Source: Ramlibacter alkalitolerans
Lineage (GTDB): Bacteria; Pseudomonadota; Gammaproteobacteria; Burkholderiales; Burkholderiaceae_C
Reading direction: 5' to 3'
NCBI RefSeq assembly: GCF_016722765.1
Contig: NZ_JAEQND010000003.1
Span: 248,001-312,000 of the forward strand
Length of the DNA stretch: 64,000 nucleotides
Shown in pieces: positions 3,123 to 60,456 of the stretch. A program made the position numbers and the translations under genes. The first letter of the stretch is position 1; each line of letters opens with the position of its first letter. The notes below the pieces were generated by a model. It had not been told where the DNA came from, ran no database searches, and saw only the letters and a program-made list of their open reading frames with translations.

Positions 3123-3845
3123 TCAGTAGCCGTAGAACTCCTCGCTGCGGATGTCGTCGTCGTCGACGCCCACGCGTTCCAGGGTCTCCCGCAAGCCGGC
3201 GACCATGGCCGGCGGGCCTGCCACGTAGTAGACGGGATCGGGCAGCTCGGCGGCCACGCGTTTCAGGAGCGCTGCGTCGACCAGCCCCGTCTCGCCCATC
3301 CAGGGCAGGCGGGACTCCGCCATGCGCGTCATCGTCGCGACCAGGCTGAAATTCGGGTAGTCGCCTTCGAGCCGCTGCAATTCGGAGAGGAAGGCGCTGT
3401 CCTCGGGCCGCCGGTTCGAATACACCAGCACCAGGCGCCGCTGCAGGCGCTGGTGGGCGGCGTGCCGCAGCATGCTCATGAACGGCGTGATGCCGATGCC
3501 GCCGGCCACGAACACCGCGGCACGCTCGGCCTTGTTGTGCAGGGTCAGCGCGCCGAACGGCCCTTCGACCTGCGCCGGTGCACCGAGGGCGAGCCCCGCC
3601 AGGGCGTTCTTGAACGCGGAGTCCCGCCTGCGCGTGGCCACCACCAGTTCGCCCTCGTGCGGCGCGCTGACGATGGAAAAGGCGTGGCGTGCGCCTTCCG
3701 TGCCGGCGATCGCCGGATCCGGCAGGATGAGGTCGATGGCCTGCCCCGGCTTGAAGCTGAAGCCGGCAGGCTTGTCGAAGTGGAAGGCCATCGTGCCGTG
3801 GGCAACTTCCTCGCGGCGCTGCAGGCGGACTGTCTCGGAGGTCAT
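3123..3845 (-). CDS. Ferredoxin-NADP reductase-like FAD/NAD(P)-binding oxidoreductase
   Basis: 240-residue flavoprotein of the ferredoxin reductase superfamily. The FAD-binding barrel comes first (HAFSIVSAPHE holds the RxYS-like flavin motif in the variant HAFSIVS). The NAD(P)-binding domain follows with VAGGIGITPFMSML, the nucleotide-binding YVAGPPAMV, and a C-terminal EEFYGY typical of this fold. There is no 2Fe-2S ferredoxin domain, so it needs an external electron partner. The start at 3845 is favoured over one at 3878 because AGGAG lies about 7 bases upstream. It is divergent from the transporter operon at 4092, across a 246-bp gap in which I see no other feature. Confidence 0.87.
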   Translation of the reverse strand: MTSETVRLQRREEVAHGTMAFHFDKPAGFSFKPGQAIDLILPDPAIAGTEGARHAFSIVSAPHEGELVVATRRRDSAFKNALAGLALGAPAQVEGPFGALTLHNKAERAAVFVAGGIGITPFMSMLRHAAHQRLQRRLVLVYSNRRPEDSAFLSELQRLEGDYPNFSLVATMTRMAESRLPWMGETGLVDAALLKRVAAELPDPVYYVAGPPAMVAGLRETLERVGVDDDDIRSEEFYGY

Positions 3846-4091
3846 GGTGCGGCTCCTGCGCCGCGGCGCGCGCGGCATGGGGGGTGGTTGCGCGAAGGGC
3901 GCTCCCGGTCATTGGATGCCGCGAACCCGGCAAACGTGACAAGCCCCTGCACGCCGCATGGCGGACGGCCGCGCAGGGCGTCTGCAGCTCGGCCGCACGG
4001 TGGCGTGAGGGCTGCCCCGGGAAAATCCCTGTATTGCCGCCGGGACGAAAACCGATTGAATGGCGACTCCATCGTGTCCAGGAGCCCCGCC

Positions 4092-10332: not shown

Positions 10333-10372
10333 GTAGGCTGGCGGTGAGCCGCGCCAGCGCGCGAACCCCAGC
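10333..10372 (+). repeat. REP element, single copy
   Basis: One 40-bp copy of the window's REP family. It begins with GTAG followed by an imperfect palindrome GCTGGCGGT...AACCCCAGC. It lies between rdgC and the divergent MFS gene. The orientation (GTAG first) is recorded as plus. Confidence 0.85.
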
Positions 10373-10402
10373 GGTGCAGCCCCGGCACCACGGTCCCGTG
10401 CA

Positions 10403-11857: not shown

Positions 11858-11870
11858 TGCGGGTGCGGGC

Positions 11871-11963
11871 GTAGGCTGGCGGTGAGCCGCGCCAGCGCGC
11901 GAACCCCAGCAATGCGCGAAGCGCCGGGGTTCCGTCGCGTTCGCGCGTCCCCCCCGGCCTGCG
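11871..11963. repeat. REP pair (BIME) between convergent genes
   Basis: A perfect forward REP copy (11871-11910, starting GTAGGCTGG) is followed by a degenerate inverted copy (11921-11963, CGCCGGGGTTCC...). Together they form a large imperfect hairpin between the 3' ends of the MFS gene and the glutathione transferase gene. Confidence 0.8.
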
Positions 11964-24193: not shown

Positions 24194-24204
24194 GAGCGGT
24201 CTTC

Positions 24205-24339
24205 GTAGGCTGGCGGTGAGCCGCGAAGCGCGACCGAGCGCCGCTGGCGGCGCGTAGTCCGAGGCGCCAGCCTCGGCAACCCCAGCGTTCAGCGTGCAAT
24301 CGCTGGGGTTCGCGCCTGCGCGGCTCACCCCAGCCTACG
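24205..24339. repeat. REP pair (BIME), GTAG ends outward
   Basis: A forward copy starts GTAGGCTGG at 24205, and its AACCCCAGCG end is displaced to 24279-24288 by an inserted, itself repetitive GC-rich piece. An inverted copy runs from CGCTGGGGTT at 24301 to AGCCTACG at 24339. The two outer ends are GTAG and CTAC. It lies between DUF1993 (plus) and the small gene at 24352 (minus), which converge here. Confidence 0.8.
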
Positions 24340-26464: not shown

Positions 26465-26468
26465 TGAG

Positions 26469-26562
26469 CGCTGGGGTTCGCGCTGCCGCGGCTCACCGCC
26501 AGCCTACGCGCGCCGCGCGTGCCGCCTGCCCGTAGGCTGGGGTGACGCCAGGAATCCCAGCG
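26469..26562. repeat. REP pair (BIME), GTAG ends inward
   Basis: An inverted copy (26469-26508, CGCTGGGGTT to GCCTACG) is followed by a degenerate forward copy (26532-26562, GTAGGCTGGGGTGA). The GTAG ends face each other, opposite to the geometry at 24205. It lies between the convergent asparaginase and adk genes. Confidence 0.8.
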
Positions 26563-32727: not shown

Positions 32728-32814
32728 CTGGGGTTCGCAGGGCTCACCGCCAGCCTACCGCCGGACCGCCGTGCGTAGGCTGGCGGTGAACCGCGAAGCG
32801 CGTGAACCCCAGCG
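32728..32814. repeat. REP pair (BIME), GTAG ends inward
   Basis: An inverted copy (32728-32758, ending in CAGCCTAC) and a forward copy (32775-32814, starting GTAGGCTGG) are separated by 16 bp. It lies between the convergent sodB and DUF192 genes. Confidence 0.85.
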
Positions 32815-43830: not shown

Positions 43831-43840
43831 TTGACGTGGC

Positions 43841-43880
43841 GTAGGCTGGTGGTGAGCCGCGAAGCGCGCGAACCCCAGCG
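43841..43880 (+). repeat. REP element, single copy
   Basis: A 40-bp copy beginning GTAGGCTGGTGGTGAGCC and ending AACCCCAGCG, directly after the clpA terminator, between convergent clpA and prlC. Confidence 0.85.
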
Positions 43881-43922
43881 TTGACACCGCAGACAAATGG
43901 CGGTGCTTGAGCGAGCCGTTGG

Positions 43923-56757: not shown

Positions 56758-58031
56758 GGCTGGCGCAGGAAGTCGATGGTGCGCGGCACCTCGCCGACCA
56801 CGATCTGCGGCAGCACCGGCGCGGTGGACGCCACCAGCCGGCCGCGCTTGAACACCTTCAGCCGGGTGGCGCGCAACCGGATCGCCTCCACCACGTCGCG
56901 CGCCTGCAGCAGCACGAAGCTGGCCTCGCAGCCGGGCGCCAGCCCGTAGCCTTCCAGGTGCATCACCTTCGCCGCATTCACCGTGACGGCATCGAAGCAG
57001 GCGCGCATGCCCTGCAGGCTGGTCATCTGCGCCACGTGCAGGCCCATGTGCGCCACCTCCAGCATGTCGCCCGAGCCCATGCCGTACCAGGGGTCCATCA
57101 CGCAGTCGTGGCCGAAGGCGACGTTGACGCCGGCGGCCATCAGCTCCGGCACCCGGGTCATGCCACGGCGCTTCGGGTAGGTGTCGTGCCGGCCCTGCAG
57201 CGTGATGTTGATCAGCGGGTTGGCGACGACGCTCACGCCGCTCTCCGCGATCAGCGGCAGCAGCTTGGAGACGTAGTAGTTGTCCATGCTGTGCATCGAG
57301 GTGCAGTGCGAGGCGTTCACCCGGCCCTGCAGGCCCAGGCGCTGGGCCTCGAAGGCCAGCGTCTCGATGTGGCGCGACAGCGGGTCGTCGGTCTCGTCGC
57401 AGTGCATGTCGACCAGCGCGCCGCGGCGTGCGGCGGCCTCGCACAGCAGCTGGATGCTGATCGCGCCATCGCTCATCGTGCGCTCGTAGTGCGGGATGCC
57501 GCCGACGATGTCGACGCCCAGGTCCATCGCGCGCTTCATGTTCTCGATCCCGCCCGGAGTGCGCAGCACGCCATCCTGCGGGAAGGCGACCAGCTGCAGG
57601 TCGATCACGCCGGCCACGCGGCGCTTGACCTCGAGCAGCGCTTCCACCGGCAGCAGGCTGGGGTCGCTGGTGTCGACGTGGCTGCGGATCGCCAGCAGCC
57701 CGCGCGCGACCGCCCAGTCGCAGTAGGCGAGGGCGCGCGCGACCAGGTCTTCCGCCTTCAGCAGCGGCTTGAGTTCGCCCCACAGCTGGATCCCCTCCAG
57801 CAGCGTGCCGCTTTCATTGACGCGCGGCAGCCCGTAGCTGAGGGTCGCGTCCATGTGGAAGTGCGGGTCGCAGAAGTGCGGCGACAGGAGATGGCCGCCG
57901 GCGTCGACGGTCTCGTGCGCCGGTGCGGACAGTCCCGGCGTCGCTTCGGCGATGACGCCGGACTGCACGGCGACCGACATGCCGGTGCGGCCGTCGGGGA
58001 AGGTGGCGTTGGTGATGAGGAGGTCGAGCAT
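56754..58031 (-). CDS. Cytosine deaminase-like amidohydrolase
   Basis: 425-residue metal-dependent hydrolase of the CodA family. Metal ligands are in HFCDPHFHMDATL (HxH), with DMHCDETDDP and NPLINITLQGRHDTYPKRRG further on, and the catalytic Asp in FGHDCVMDPWYGMGSGDMLE; these blocks are CodA-like. It deaminates cytosine or a related N-heterocycle. Its start overlaps the HupE-like stop (TGATG). In this operon it could supply uracil to the uracil phosphoribosyltransferase. Other amidohydrolase substrates are possible. Confidence 0.88.
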   Translation of the reverse strand: MLDLLITNATFPDGRTGMSVAVQSGVIAEATPGLSAPAHETVDAGGHLLSPHFCDPHFHMDATLSYGLPRVNESGTLLEGIQLWGELKPLLKAEDLVARALAYCDWAVARGLLAIRSHVDTSDPSLLPVEALLEVKRRVAGVIDLQLVAFPQDGVLRTPGGIENMKRAMDLGVDIVGGIPHYERTMSDGAISIQLLCEAAARRGALVDMHCDETDDPLSRHIETLAFEAQRLGLQGRVNASHCTSMHSMDNYYVSKLLPLIAESGVSVVANPLINITLQGRHDTYPKRRGMTRVPELMAAGVNVAFGHDCVMDPWYGMGSGDMLEVAHMGLHVAQMTSLQGMRACFDAVTVNAAKVMHLEGYGLAPGCEASFVLLQARDVVEAIRLRATRLKVFKRGRLVASTAPVLPQIVVGEVPRTIDFLRQP

Positions 58032-59278
58032 CAGGAAGGTGCCAGGTCGAAGGCCCGCTGGACGAACCACCACGCGGCCACCAGCGCCACGCACAGCGAG
58101 CCGAAACGCAGCACGCCGACGCGGTAGAAGCTGGTGCTGCGCAGCAGGTAGGCCACGGGCAGGAAGGCCGCGACGATCGCCAGCTGGCCGATCTCCACGC
58201 CCAGGTTGAAGCCGACCAGCGCCAGCGCCAGCGCGCCTTGCGGCAGGCCGAGGTCCGCCAGGACGGAGGCGAAGCCGAATCCGTGCACGAGGCCGAACAC
58301 GAAGGCCATGACCCAGCGCTTGCGGTCGATGGTGCCGCGCAGGTTGTTGAGGGCCGCCACGACCACCGAGGCGGCGATCACGGATTCGACCAGCCGCGAA
58401 GGCAGGCTGATGAAGCCCAGCACGGCGAGGCTGAGGGTGATGGAGTGGGCCAGCGTGAAGGCGGTCACCACCTTGAGCACGTCGACGGCGGCGGCGCGCA
58501 GGCTGGGCGTGGGACTCCAGGCCTGCGCGCGGCGCACCAGCACCGCCGGCAGCAGCAGGGCGACCAGGAACAGGATGTGGTCGAAGCCGATCCAGATGTG
58601 CCAGATGCCTTCGACGACGTACTGGCGCAGCGTCTCCCAGCCACTGGTGGCGGCGAGCTGGAGGTCCTGGGTGGCGGAGTCGGCGGCGAAGACCAGCGGC
58701 TGCGGCGAGGAGGCGCCGGCGGGCGTCCACTGCACCAGGCCGCGGTGCGTCGGGTCGACGTCGAACAGCATCGCGTAGTGGACCTGCACGCTGCCGGCGA
58801 GCTTGTCGCACTGCGCGCGCAGGGACAGCACCGCGTACGTGCCGTCGCTGTGCTTGTCCAGCATCAGCGGGCCGGCGGATTGCAGGGGACACGCGGCGCC
58901 CTGCGACGAGAAGGTGAGCTTGGCGATCGCGAGCTTCTCGAGGTCGGCGCTGCGCTGGCGCACCTCGCCCCAGGTCAGTTCGCCGTTGCCGTCGCGATCG
59001 AGCTGCAGCACGTAGTCGAGGTCGCGCAGCGCGATGTCCCAGCGCACGGCGATGCCGTCCGGCTCGCCGCGCAGGGTGAGGTAGGAGTCGCTGGGTTTGT
59101 GGGCCCAGGCGGGCAAGGAGACGAGGGCGAGGAGGAGGACGTAGGCTGGCGGTGAGCCGCGCCAGCGCGCGAACCCCAGCGGTGCGCCAGCGCAGCGAAG
59201 CGCTGGGGTTCCGGCGCTGGCGCGCGTCACCACCAGCCTACGAAGCCAGCACCAGACGGAAAGCAGCACCCCTCTCAC
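58031..59278 (-). CDS. HupE/UreJ-like membrane protein with REP-expanded N terminus
   Basis: 415 residues. A periplasmic domain (AHKPSDSYLTLRGEPDGIAVRWDIALRDLDYVL) is followed by a six- to seven-helix HupE/UreJ_2 domain (GIWHIWIGFDHILFLVALLLPAVL, FTLAHSITLSLAVLGF, FVFGLVHGFGFASVLADLG). The only available start is a GTG at 59278 that overlaps the upstream stop (GTGA). Between it and the hydrophobic signal core VLLLALVSLPAWA lie about 34 codons contributed by a REP pair. HupE and UreJ carry nickel or cobalt; transport by this branch is unproven. Confidence 0.85.
   Translation of the reverse strand: MRGVLLSVWCWLRRLVVTRASAGTPALRCAGAPLGFARWRGSPPAYVLLLALVSLPAWAHKPSDSYLTLRGEPDGIAVRWDIALRDLDYVLQLDRDGNGELTWGEVRQRSADLEKLAIAKLTFSSQGAACPLQSAGPLMLDKHSDGTYAVLSLRAQCDKLAGSVQVHYAMLFDVDPTHRGLVQWTPAGASSPQPLVFAADSATQDLQLAATSGWETLRQYVVEGIWHIWIGFDHILFLVALLLPAVLVRRAQAWSPTPSLRAAAVDVLKVVTAFTLAHSITLSLAVLGFISLPSRLVESVIAASVVVAALNNLRGTIDRKRWVMAFVFGLVHGFGFASVLADLGLPQGALALALVGFNLGVEIGQLAIVAAFLPVAYLLRSTSFYRVGVLRFGSLCVALVAAWWFVQRAFDLAPS
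59141..59242. repeat. REP pair (BIME) inside the HupE-like coding region
   Basis: A forward copy (59141-59180, GTAGGCTGG start) and an inverted copy (59201-59242, CTACG end) sit within the signal-peptide part of the HupE-like gene. The gene frame stays open through all of it (102 bp, 34 codons). The outer ends are GTAG and CTAC. Confidence 0.85.
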
Positions 59279-60456
59279 CGCGTCCCCCCCAGCTTCGCCG
59301 CCACTTCCTGCAGCACCGGATCCTCATACCCGCTCGTCTTCAGCCACTCCAGCGCCGGCTGCGCGGCCGCAGGATCGCGGGCAGCCAGTGCCGCGCGCAG
59401 CAGCACCTCGGCGTCGCGCGGCTCCTTCTGCTTCGTGTAGTTGCTCTTCGCGTAGGCCAGCGCCTTGGCCGCATCGTGTTCCAGTTCCAGCTCCCAGCGC
59501 GCGGCCTCCTGTTCGTGCAGGCGATCGCCGCGCCTGGCGGCTGCCTCGAAGCGGTCGCGCAGTTGCGACAGCCACTCGCCGGTGCGCGGATGATTCACCG
59601 CCCGGCCGGCCAGGGCCAGGCGCAGCAACAGGACGTCGGAGCGCTCCCAGCCATCGAGCAGCTGCACCACTTCCTGCGGCCGCCCGCGCTGCAGCAGGAA
59701 GTCGGCATACGACGCCAGCAGGAACTGGTCGGTGATGCCCTGGGCGAGCGCGGCAGCGTAATGCCGTTGCGCGTCGCCCCAGCGCTGCAGCCGCACGGCC
59801 ATTTCGGCCAGCCGCGTCTGGACCCAGAGCATCAATCCCGGCGCGACGTCCTTCGCGTTCGACACGGCATCGGACAGCATCTCGTAGGCGGGCACCAGCT
59901 GGCCCGTCGTGGCACGCACATAGGCGGTGCAGCCCTGCGCGAACAGGCCGGGCGCGATCCGCCCCATGCGGTCGCATTCCGCCGCGGCCCACGCGTACTG
60001 CGCTTGCACCATGTAGATGGCCGCGCGCCAGGCCACCGGCTCCACCGCCTGGGGATCGAGCTCGCTGGCGCGCTTGAGGCTCGCCAGCGCGCCCTCGAAA
60101 TCATGGCTGTACTGCTGCAGCTGGCCGCGCACCAGCCAGTAGCGGCCGTCCTGGCCGGCGCCCTGCGCCAGCGGCGCGATGCTGGACATCGCGTAGCCCA
60201 CGTAGCGCGGATCGCCCTGCGCCATCGCCAGCGCGAAATAGCGCTCGCCCAGGTCGAGGCGCAAGGCCTGGTCCTGCGGCCGCGAGGCGAGCTGCCGCCG
60301 CAGCGATTCGACCACGCGCAGGGCCGGGTCGCTGGCCACCGGCAGGCGCTCGACGACCTCGGTGTCGCTGGCCGGCGTGTAGGGCGCGGCGGGGGCGCGC
60401 GCGGCCAGCAGGCACAGCGCAGCCGCCGCCACGCACGCGCATCGCGGACTGGGCAT
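59275..60456 (-). CDS. Secreted TPR-repeat protein
   Basis: 393 residues with an N-terminal signal peptide (CACVAAAALCLLAARAPAAP) and tetratricopeptide-like helical repeats throughout, such as GRYWLVRGQLQQYSHDFEGALASLKRASELDP and LLASYADFLLQRGRPQEVVQLLDGW. It is periplasmic by prediction. It overlaps the HupE-like gene (GTGA) and begins 8 bp after upp, so it belongs to the same operon. Pairing of a TPR protein with a HupE/UreJ_2 protein suggests joint function. Confidence 0.85.
   Translation of the reverse strand: MPSPRCACVAAAALCLLAARAPAAPYTPASDTEVVERLPVASDPALRVVESLRRQLASRPQDQALRLDLGERYFALAMAQGDPRYVGYAMSSIAPLAQGAGQDGRYWLVRGQLQQYSHDFEGALASLKRASELDPQAVEPVAWRAAIYMVQAQYAWAAAECDRMGRIAPGLFAQGCTAYVRATTGQLVPAYEMLSDAVSNAKDVAPGLMLWVQTRLAEMAVRLQRWGDAQRHYAAALAQGITDQFLLASYADFLLQRGRPQEVVQLLDGWERSDVLLLRLALAGRAVNHPRTGEWLSQLRDRFEAAARRGDRLHEQEAARWELELEHDAAKALAYAKSNYTKQKEPRDAEVLLRAALAARDPAAAQPALEWLKTSGYEDPVLQEVAAKLGGTR

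Follow-up and report, generated by a model that had tools for sequence, protein, structure and literature searches.

An in-frame GTAG-type REP dimer in the predicted signal-peptide n-region of a HupE-like gene of Ramlibacter alkalitolerans

Can a mobile repeat that lies in the first codons of a gene for an exported protein be translated as part of the signal peptide, or has it moved the start codon or damaged the gene? The question is raised by a minus-strand gene of the HupE/UreJ family (59278-58031) in the Ramlibacter window, the stretch of 64,000 nucleotides analysed here. Passages of Di Nocera et al. 2013 (PMC3733652) describe GTAG REPs as palindromic units with GTAG ends, often paired as dimers of opposite orientation; copies occur within ORFs and, in a number of cases, at their NH2 termini, and most of these NH2-terminal copies are considered there to be perhaps extragenic, through misannotation. 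N-terminal in-frame repeats are usually blamed on a wrongly annotated start, and the HupE start, fixed by an overlap with the preceding gene, makes the question directly testable.

The start codon and leader of the HupE-like gene

The features of the locus are as follows.

59275 to 60456, minus strand: upstream ORF for a TPR-repeat protein, whose TGA overlaps the HupE start
59275 to 59278, minus strand: GTGA, a 4-nt overlap of the HupE GTG start and the TPR TGA, in the geometry of translational coupling
59243 to 59278, minus strand: codons 1-12, ahead of the repeat (VRGVLLSVWCWL)
59140 to 59242, minus strand: GTAG-type REP dimer of 103 nt, an inverted pair CGTAGG...CCTACG
59141 to 59242, minus strand: 34 REP-encoded codons (13-46), a putative enlarged signal-peptide n-region, with GTGs at 59233 and 59230
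59102 to 59140, minus strand: predicted h- and c-region of the signal peptide, VLLLALVSLPAWA (codons 47-59), with A-W-A before His60
58031 to 59101, minus strand: mature HupE/UreJ-family protein, 356 aa plus stop, with Pfam HupE_UreJ_2 at precursor residues 220-382

The original prediction, that a REP pair is read in frame for 34 codons after 12 others in the signal peptide of this gene, is borne out by coordinates and codons. The protein belongs to the HupE/UreJ family, with 169.8 bits against the PF13795 profile (curated cut-off 24.5). Codons 13-46 translate as RRLVVTRASAGTPALRCAGAPLGFARWRGSPPAY, and the mature part begins with His60 at 59101 (HKPSDSYL). The arms of the inverted pair measure 48 nt each, are 85% complementary and are separated by a 7-nt gap, and the GTAGG...CCTAC at both outer ends marks the dimer as GTAG-type. 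It is a multi-copy element: the stretches read of the host genome (G000; 5.7 Mb, 33 contigs) hold 43 full dimers as well as partial copies. Further full or partial family copies lie in the window at 10333-10377, 11870-11963, 24204-24339, 26467-26508, 32774-32814 and 43840-43883.

A start at GTG 59278, overlapping the upstream stop, had also been proposed. The HupE GTG occupies 59278-59276 and the TPR TGA 59277-59275, and we looked for this overlap at 81 orthologue loci (L001-L080 and L110). No TPR gene is seen at L004 and L069; the other 79 have a TPR homologue upstream of HupE. At 77 of the 79 an in-frame HupE start is overlapped by the TPR stop codon, as NTGA in 76 cases and by one base in the other; the overlap is missing at L053 and L071. 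Because of this conservation the HupE start is anchored independently of the repeat, which supports the proposal and disposes of the objection commonly raised against N-terminal REPs, that of a miscalled start. Other in-frame starts are the GTG of codon 4, the GTG-GTG of codons 16-17 in the repeat and a TTG within the hydrophobic core. Between repeat and core there is no ATG, GTG or TTG, so every usable start of these kinds yields a REP-encoded n-region. The earlier claim that no start lies between the repeat and the mature part thus stands as far as the core, but not for the core itself, which holds the TTG. A mis-annotated HupE start was rejected on the conserved overlap together with the lack of a start codon after the repeat.

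Translation could instead begin at one of the two GTGs of the repeat, at 59233 or at 59230, which follow its AGG by 3 or 6 nt; the REP would then provide both the start and the n-region of a leader of about 43 residues. This would fit the fact that 77 of 86 oriented rows (43 host-genome dimers, both ends) finish with GTAGGCTGGYGGTG, and that the repeat of the R. montanisoli orthologue (L006) contains an in-frame GTG. The window dimer, however, folds at -90 kcal/mol (z about -11.1, with none of 200 shuffles equal), and the internal site is buried in that stem; the overlap start, conserved in nearly all loci with a TPR homologue, also speaks against it. We regard an internal start as unlikely, and if one were real the n-region would still be repeat-encoded.

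We scored the signal peptide with a simple hydropathy and charge measure of our own. The n-region carries a net charge of +7, the core VLLLALVSL has a mean Kyte-Doolittle value of 3.16 and A-W-A stands at the end, features expected of a Sec signal; core and cleavage motif look ordinary. A twin-arginine signal was considered and dropped, since the RR at codons 13-14 is far from the hydrophobic core. The leader is thus predicted to have about 59 residues, 34 of them from the translated repeat, as originally suggested; the fixed start and the in-frame repeats at the same place in relatives support this.

Empty and filled leaders among the orthologues

The leaders were compared on a 44-row tree of orthologues of at least 65% identity, with duplicates removed and reverse-strand loci included; more distant loci were used for their leaders only, in a listing confined to forward-strand loci. 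In 36 of the 44 rows the leader has 17-26 residues and no recognised repeat. These were judged by eye, save for three of them (L001, L002 and L007), whose match to the REP family is on a par with that of shuffled sequences. The REP is absent from the leaders of R. monticola, R. paludis and L002. A comparison of orthologues had been proposed as a check, and shorter REP-free leaders do exist: that of R. monticola, the closest orthologue (89% identity in the mature protein), has 18 residues, MIRWLLLAALFLCAPASA. REP-free orthologues that start just upstream of the core, as here, had been named as a finding that would count against translation through the repeat. They do not refute it, because the R. 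monticola-type start codon is absent from the window gene.

The other eight leaders, of 27-152 residues, comprise six clear and two tentative repeat carriers.

Window gene: GTAG REP, leader of 59 residues
L006, R. montanisoli: GTAG REP, leader of 51 residues
L004, a MAG: GTAG REP, leader of 65 residues
L011, Caenimonas sedimenti: inverted repeat starting TCATCCCCGCGAAGGCGGGGATC, leader of 50 residues
L012: CGTTCGGGCTGAGCYTGTCGAAG repeat, leader of 28 residues
L110: CGTTCGGGCTGAGCYTGTCGAAG repeat, leader of 27 residues
L003, R. cellulosilyticus: tentative REP remnant (3 of 100 shuffles equal), leader of 39 residues
L005, a Ramlibacter MAG, 3581-3869: 63-nt unit repeated 4.6 times in tandem and in frame, leader of 152 residues from the overlapping start

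The likeness of the L005 leader to the REP is weak (shuffles equal it in 7 of 100 trials for the unit and in 2 of 100 for the leader end), and both the L003 and the L005 leader may be REP remnants. The TCATCCCCGCGAAGGCGGGGATC inverted repeat occurs four times in the C. sedimenti genome (G018), and the CGTTCGGGCTGAGCYTGTCGAAG repeat 4 times in G043 and 11 times in G027; in the host genome, four of the seven places returned by a search with the other repeat families were read. Presumably the TCATCCCCGCGAAGGCGGGGATC family resembles Neisseria dRS3. Judged from sequence, three unrelated repeat families have filled this one orthologous leader.

All eight repeats, clear and tentative, are in frame. 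In each of the five clear carriers whose upstream stop is visible (window, L006, L011, L012, L110), the overlap start shares the frame of the mature part; the same holds for the tentative L003 and L005. The chance of five out of five is (1/3)^5, about 0.004, if the cases are independent, and about 0.012 if the window and L006 represent one event. Translation through the repeat is not needed in L005 and L011, because an ATG lies after the repeat or at its end. Leader length alone proves nothing, since eight distant orthologues (L033, L034, L036, L048, L051, L055, L065 and L075) have leaders of 33-55 residues with no recognised repeat; among them, L033, L034, L036 and L075, from MAGs labelled Polaromonas, Comamonadaceae or Limnohabitans, have leaders of 42-55 residues.

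Staying open in the frame of the HupE gene is not automatic for such a dimer. The 43 full dimers of the host genome (matched length 89-136 nt, outer ends GTAGG/CCTAC) have on average 1.7 of six frames open, and their lengths spread over the three remainders of division by three (11, 13 and 19 dimers), so a random insertion would usually break the gene. We consider it probable that the HupE leader contains an in-frame REP dimer that is translated as part of a cleaved n-region and tolerated for want of an intergenic spacer. A mobile GTAG-type dimer would have gone in shortly after the start codon of a gene that encodes a Sec-exported membrane protein. As that start sits on the TPR stop codon, an insertion near the 3' end of the upstream gene falls in the first codons of the next, and there would be no spacer to absorb it. 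It could survive only in frame and stop-free, with core and cleavage site intact; the n-region, loose in length and sequence, would tolerate 34 extra residues, and signal peptidase should remove the leader and leave the mature protein unchanged. We infer the start at GTG 59278, export and cleavage, neutrality and arrival by transposition from these comparisons.

It had also been suggested that the insertion damaged export. Export or translation would then be lost and the frame would be intact by chance, a view with which the strong hairpin of the repeat and the ability of R. monticola to do without it would agree. The mature protein is full-length, however, and its gene is under purifying selection, with a dN/dS of 0.20 against R. 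monticola and 0.20-0.33 across six relatives. The core and A-W-A look ordinary, and R. montanisoli, too, has an in-frame REP in its HupE leader. Damage therefore finds no support in these sequences, and we think it very improbable.

The hairpin, the history of the insertion and other genes

The repeat begins 37 nt downstream of the GTG start of the window gene, and between 27 and 61 nt after the start in the window, L006, L004 and the two further genes described below. A distance of 27-61 nt is beyond the usual initiation footprint. Judged by its position, the hairpin is thus unlikely to block initiation, as had been considered. It might nevertheless be kept because it tunes the gene pair, through the stability of the upstream mRNA or through translational coupling, with n-region coding as a by-product. 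Stable hairpins in L006 (z -7.4) and in the cytochrome gene L130 (z -4.4), as in the window, are consistent with this; the L004 hairpin is weaker (z -2.6, 1 of 200 shuffles equal). The repeats also lie near the 3' end of the upstream gene, a preferred position of GTAG REPs in passages of PMC3733652. Against tuning, R. monticola, R. paludis and L002 lack the repeat, and repeats of other families occupy the HupE site. Moreover, the possible remnant in L003 folds no better than its shuffles (z -0.69) while its frame is still open. If it truly is a remnant, the frame there has outlived the stem; we had taken L003 as clear proof of this and dropped it as such after the shuffle test of its REP likeness. 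Retention for tuning seems to us improbable, and a translated, tolerated n-region remains the preferred reading.

The GTAG REP family was detected in five of 18 genomes (E 1e-6, best 40 candidates per genome). Among these best 40 candidates, matches beyond the host lie at 13 places in R. montanisoli (G012), of which eight were read, and at four in C. sedimenti, of which two were read, while R. monticola (G013) and R. paludis (G015) have one partial match each; none was found at these settings in G007, G042 and G032, the genomes of L003, L004 and L005. An association with RAYT transposases is common for GTAG REPs and may be missing, as passages of PMC3733652 have it. The host genome has a single Y1_Tnp match. 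The 4.3 kb of sequence read at this locus contain no GTAG REP copy, so that no RAYT was found beside the family; a RAYT may have been lost or gone undetected. The Y1_Tnp gene (L162 about 1475-2320, G000 contig C1) has another motif, translating as NWGQIPI, on both sides, an arrangement reminiscent of the TIR-flanked transposases in parts of PMC3733652.

Filled and empty leaders are neighbours on the tree: the window and R. monticola, L004 and R. paludis, and L005 with L006 and L002. If L003 and L005 count as carriers, a single gain followed by three losses needs four changes, as do four separate gains, by a count made by hand; the inner forks are weak (88/64 and 92/77 in the 44-row tree). The GTAG carriers may derive from one old insertion, which is favoured because the window and L006 share their immediate flanks. 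Separate arrivals or conversion are favoured because R. monticola has one partial match and because the window copy is nearer to host copies than to that of L006, which ranks 70th of 109 in likeness to it, behind many host-genome copies (both orientations ranked, the window's own copy counted). L012 and L110 belong to separate parts of the tree, and a close relative of each (L022 and L020, respectively) is repeat-free.

Across the host genome, G012 and G018, seven of the 61 REP places examined open into a coding-like frame. Three have a start codon shortly after the repeat; the other four are the window gene, if the TTG in its core is set apart, its R. montanisoli orthologue and two further genes.

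L130 1264-1680, G000 contig C15, minus strand: small cytochrome c (PF00034), REP dimer in the predicted signal-peptide n-region
L160 492-1199, G018 contig C46: transport permease (PF02653), REP-encoded N-terminal tail, ATG overlapping the upstream stop

The cytochrome c case was missed by our first coding filter and found by looser tests. Its leader reads VMRSSDVPV, the repeat and ATASLALICLAVPAHA, with the upstream stop 1 nt before the start and no start codon between repeat and core. In R. monticola the orthologous leader has 19 residues and no REP, whereas in G038 there is a leader of 47-48 residues that overlaps the upstream stop and whose REP likeness beats 100 of 100 shuffles.

The n-regions of genes that touch the preceding stop might be a recurrent refuge for mobile repeats, which would be translated there, serve as n-region and be discarded with the signal peptide, and so could persist, possibly with active hairpins, at no change to the mature protein, in several families independently. 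We hold this only tentatively. As a control, G027 was examined for the CGTTCGGGCTGAGC repeat, one of the two non-GTAG families of the HupE leaders: six of its ten further copies there (L166, L167, L168, L170, L173 and L174) lie inside long frames that look coding by composition to either side. Since these copies also sit inside other genes, the leader would be one tolerant place among several, which speaks against signal peptides being special here. Among the 61 places no GTAG copy was found mid-gene by a base-composition filter, which can miss cases.

Comparison with known repeats in coding sequence

If the preferred reading is true, selfish repeats can live in coding sequence and leave the mature protein unchanged, and some unusually long annotated signal peptides can be real. 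Palindromic elements read in frame within protein genes have already been published for Rickettsia and for several REP-bearing genomes, and cases in predicted signal peptides are on record too. What appears to be new, as far as the literature searched shows, is the use of GTAG REPs as the n-region of a conserved gene with an anchored start, together with the putative filling of one orthologous leader by three repeat families and the second gene in the host genome.

With respect to the GTAG REPs in the passages of Di Nocera et al., the window gene differs in that its start is fixed by the overlap and no start follows the repeat; the word 'signal' occurs twice in PMC3733652, neither time about signal peptides. 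YPAL/RU-2 and RU-1 repeats in enterobacterial ORFs are described in passages of Delihas 2007 (PMC2759123) and Delihas (PMC2229807), according to which the YPO1552 homologues of other genera carry signal sequences that bear no relation to the repeat. These are other families, presented there as a possible birth of new exported proteins, and those passages contain neither an overlap-anchored start nor an orthologous leader filled repeatedly by several families, both of which are features here. The Rickettsia palindromic elements (Ogata et al. 2000), as cited in passages of PMC2229807 and PMC3733652, are selfish and lie in frame in conserved genes whose function is kept. Those elements stay in the product, whereas the REP residues of the window gene lie in a leader that is presumably cleaved off.
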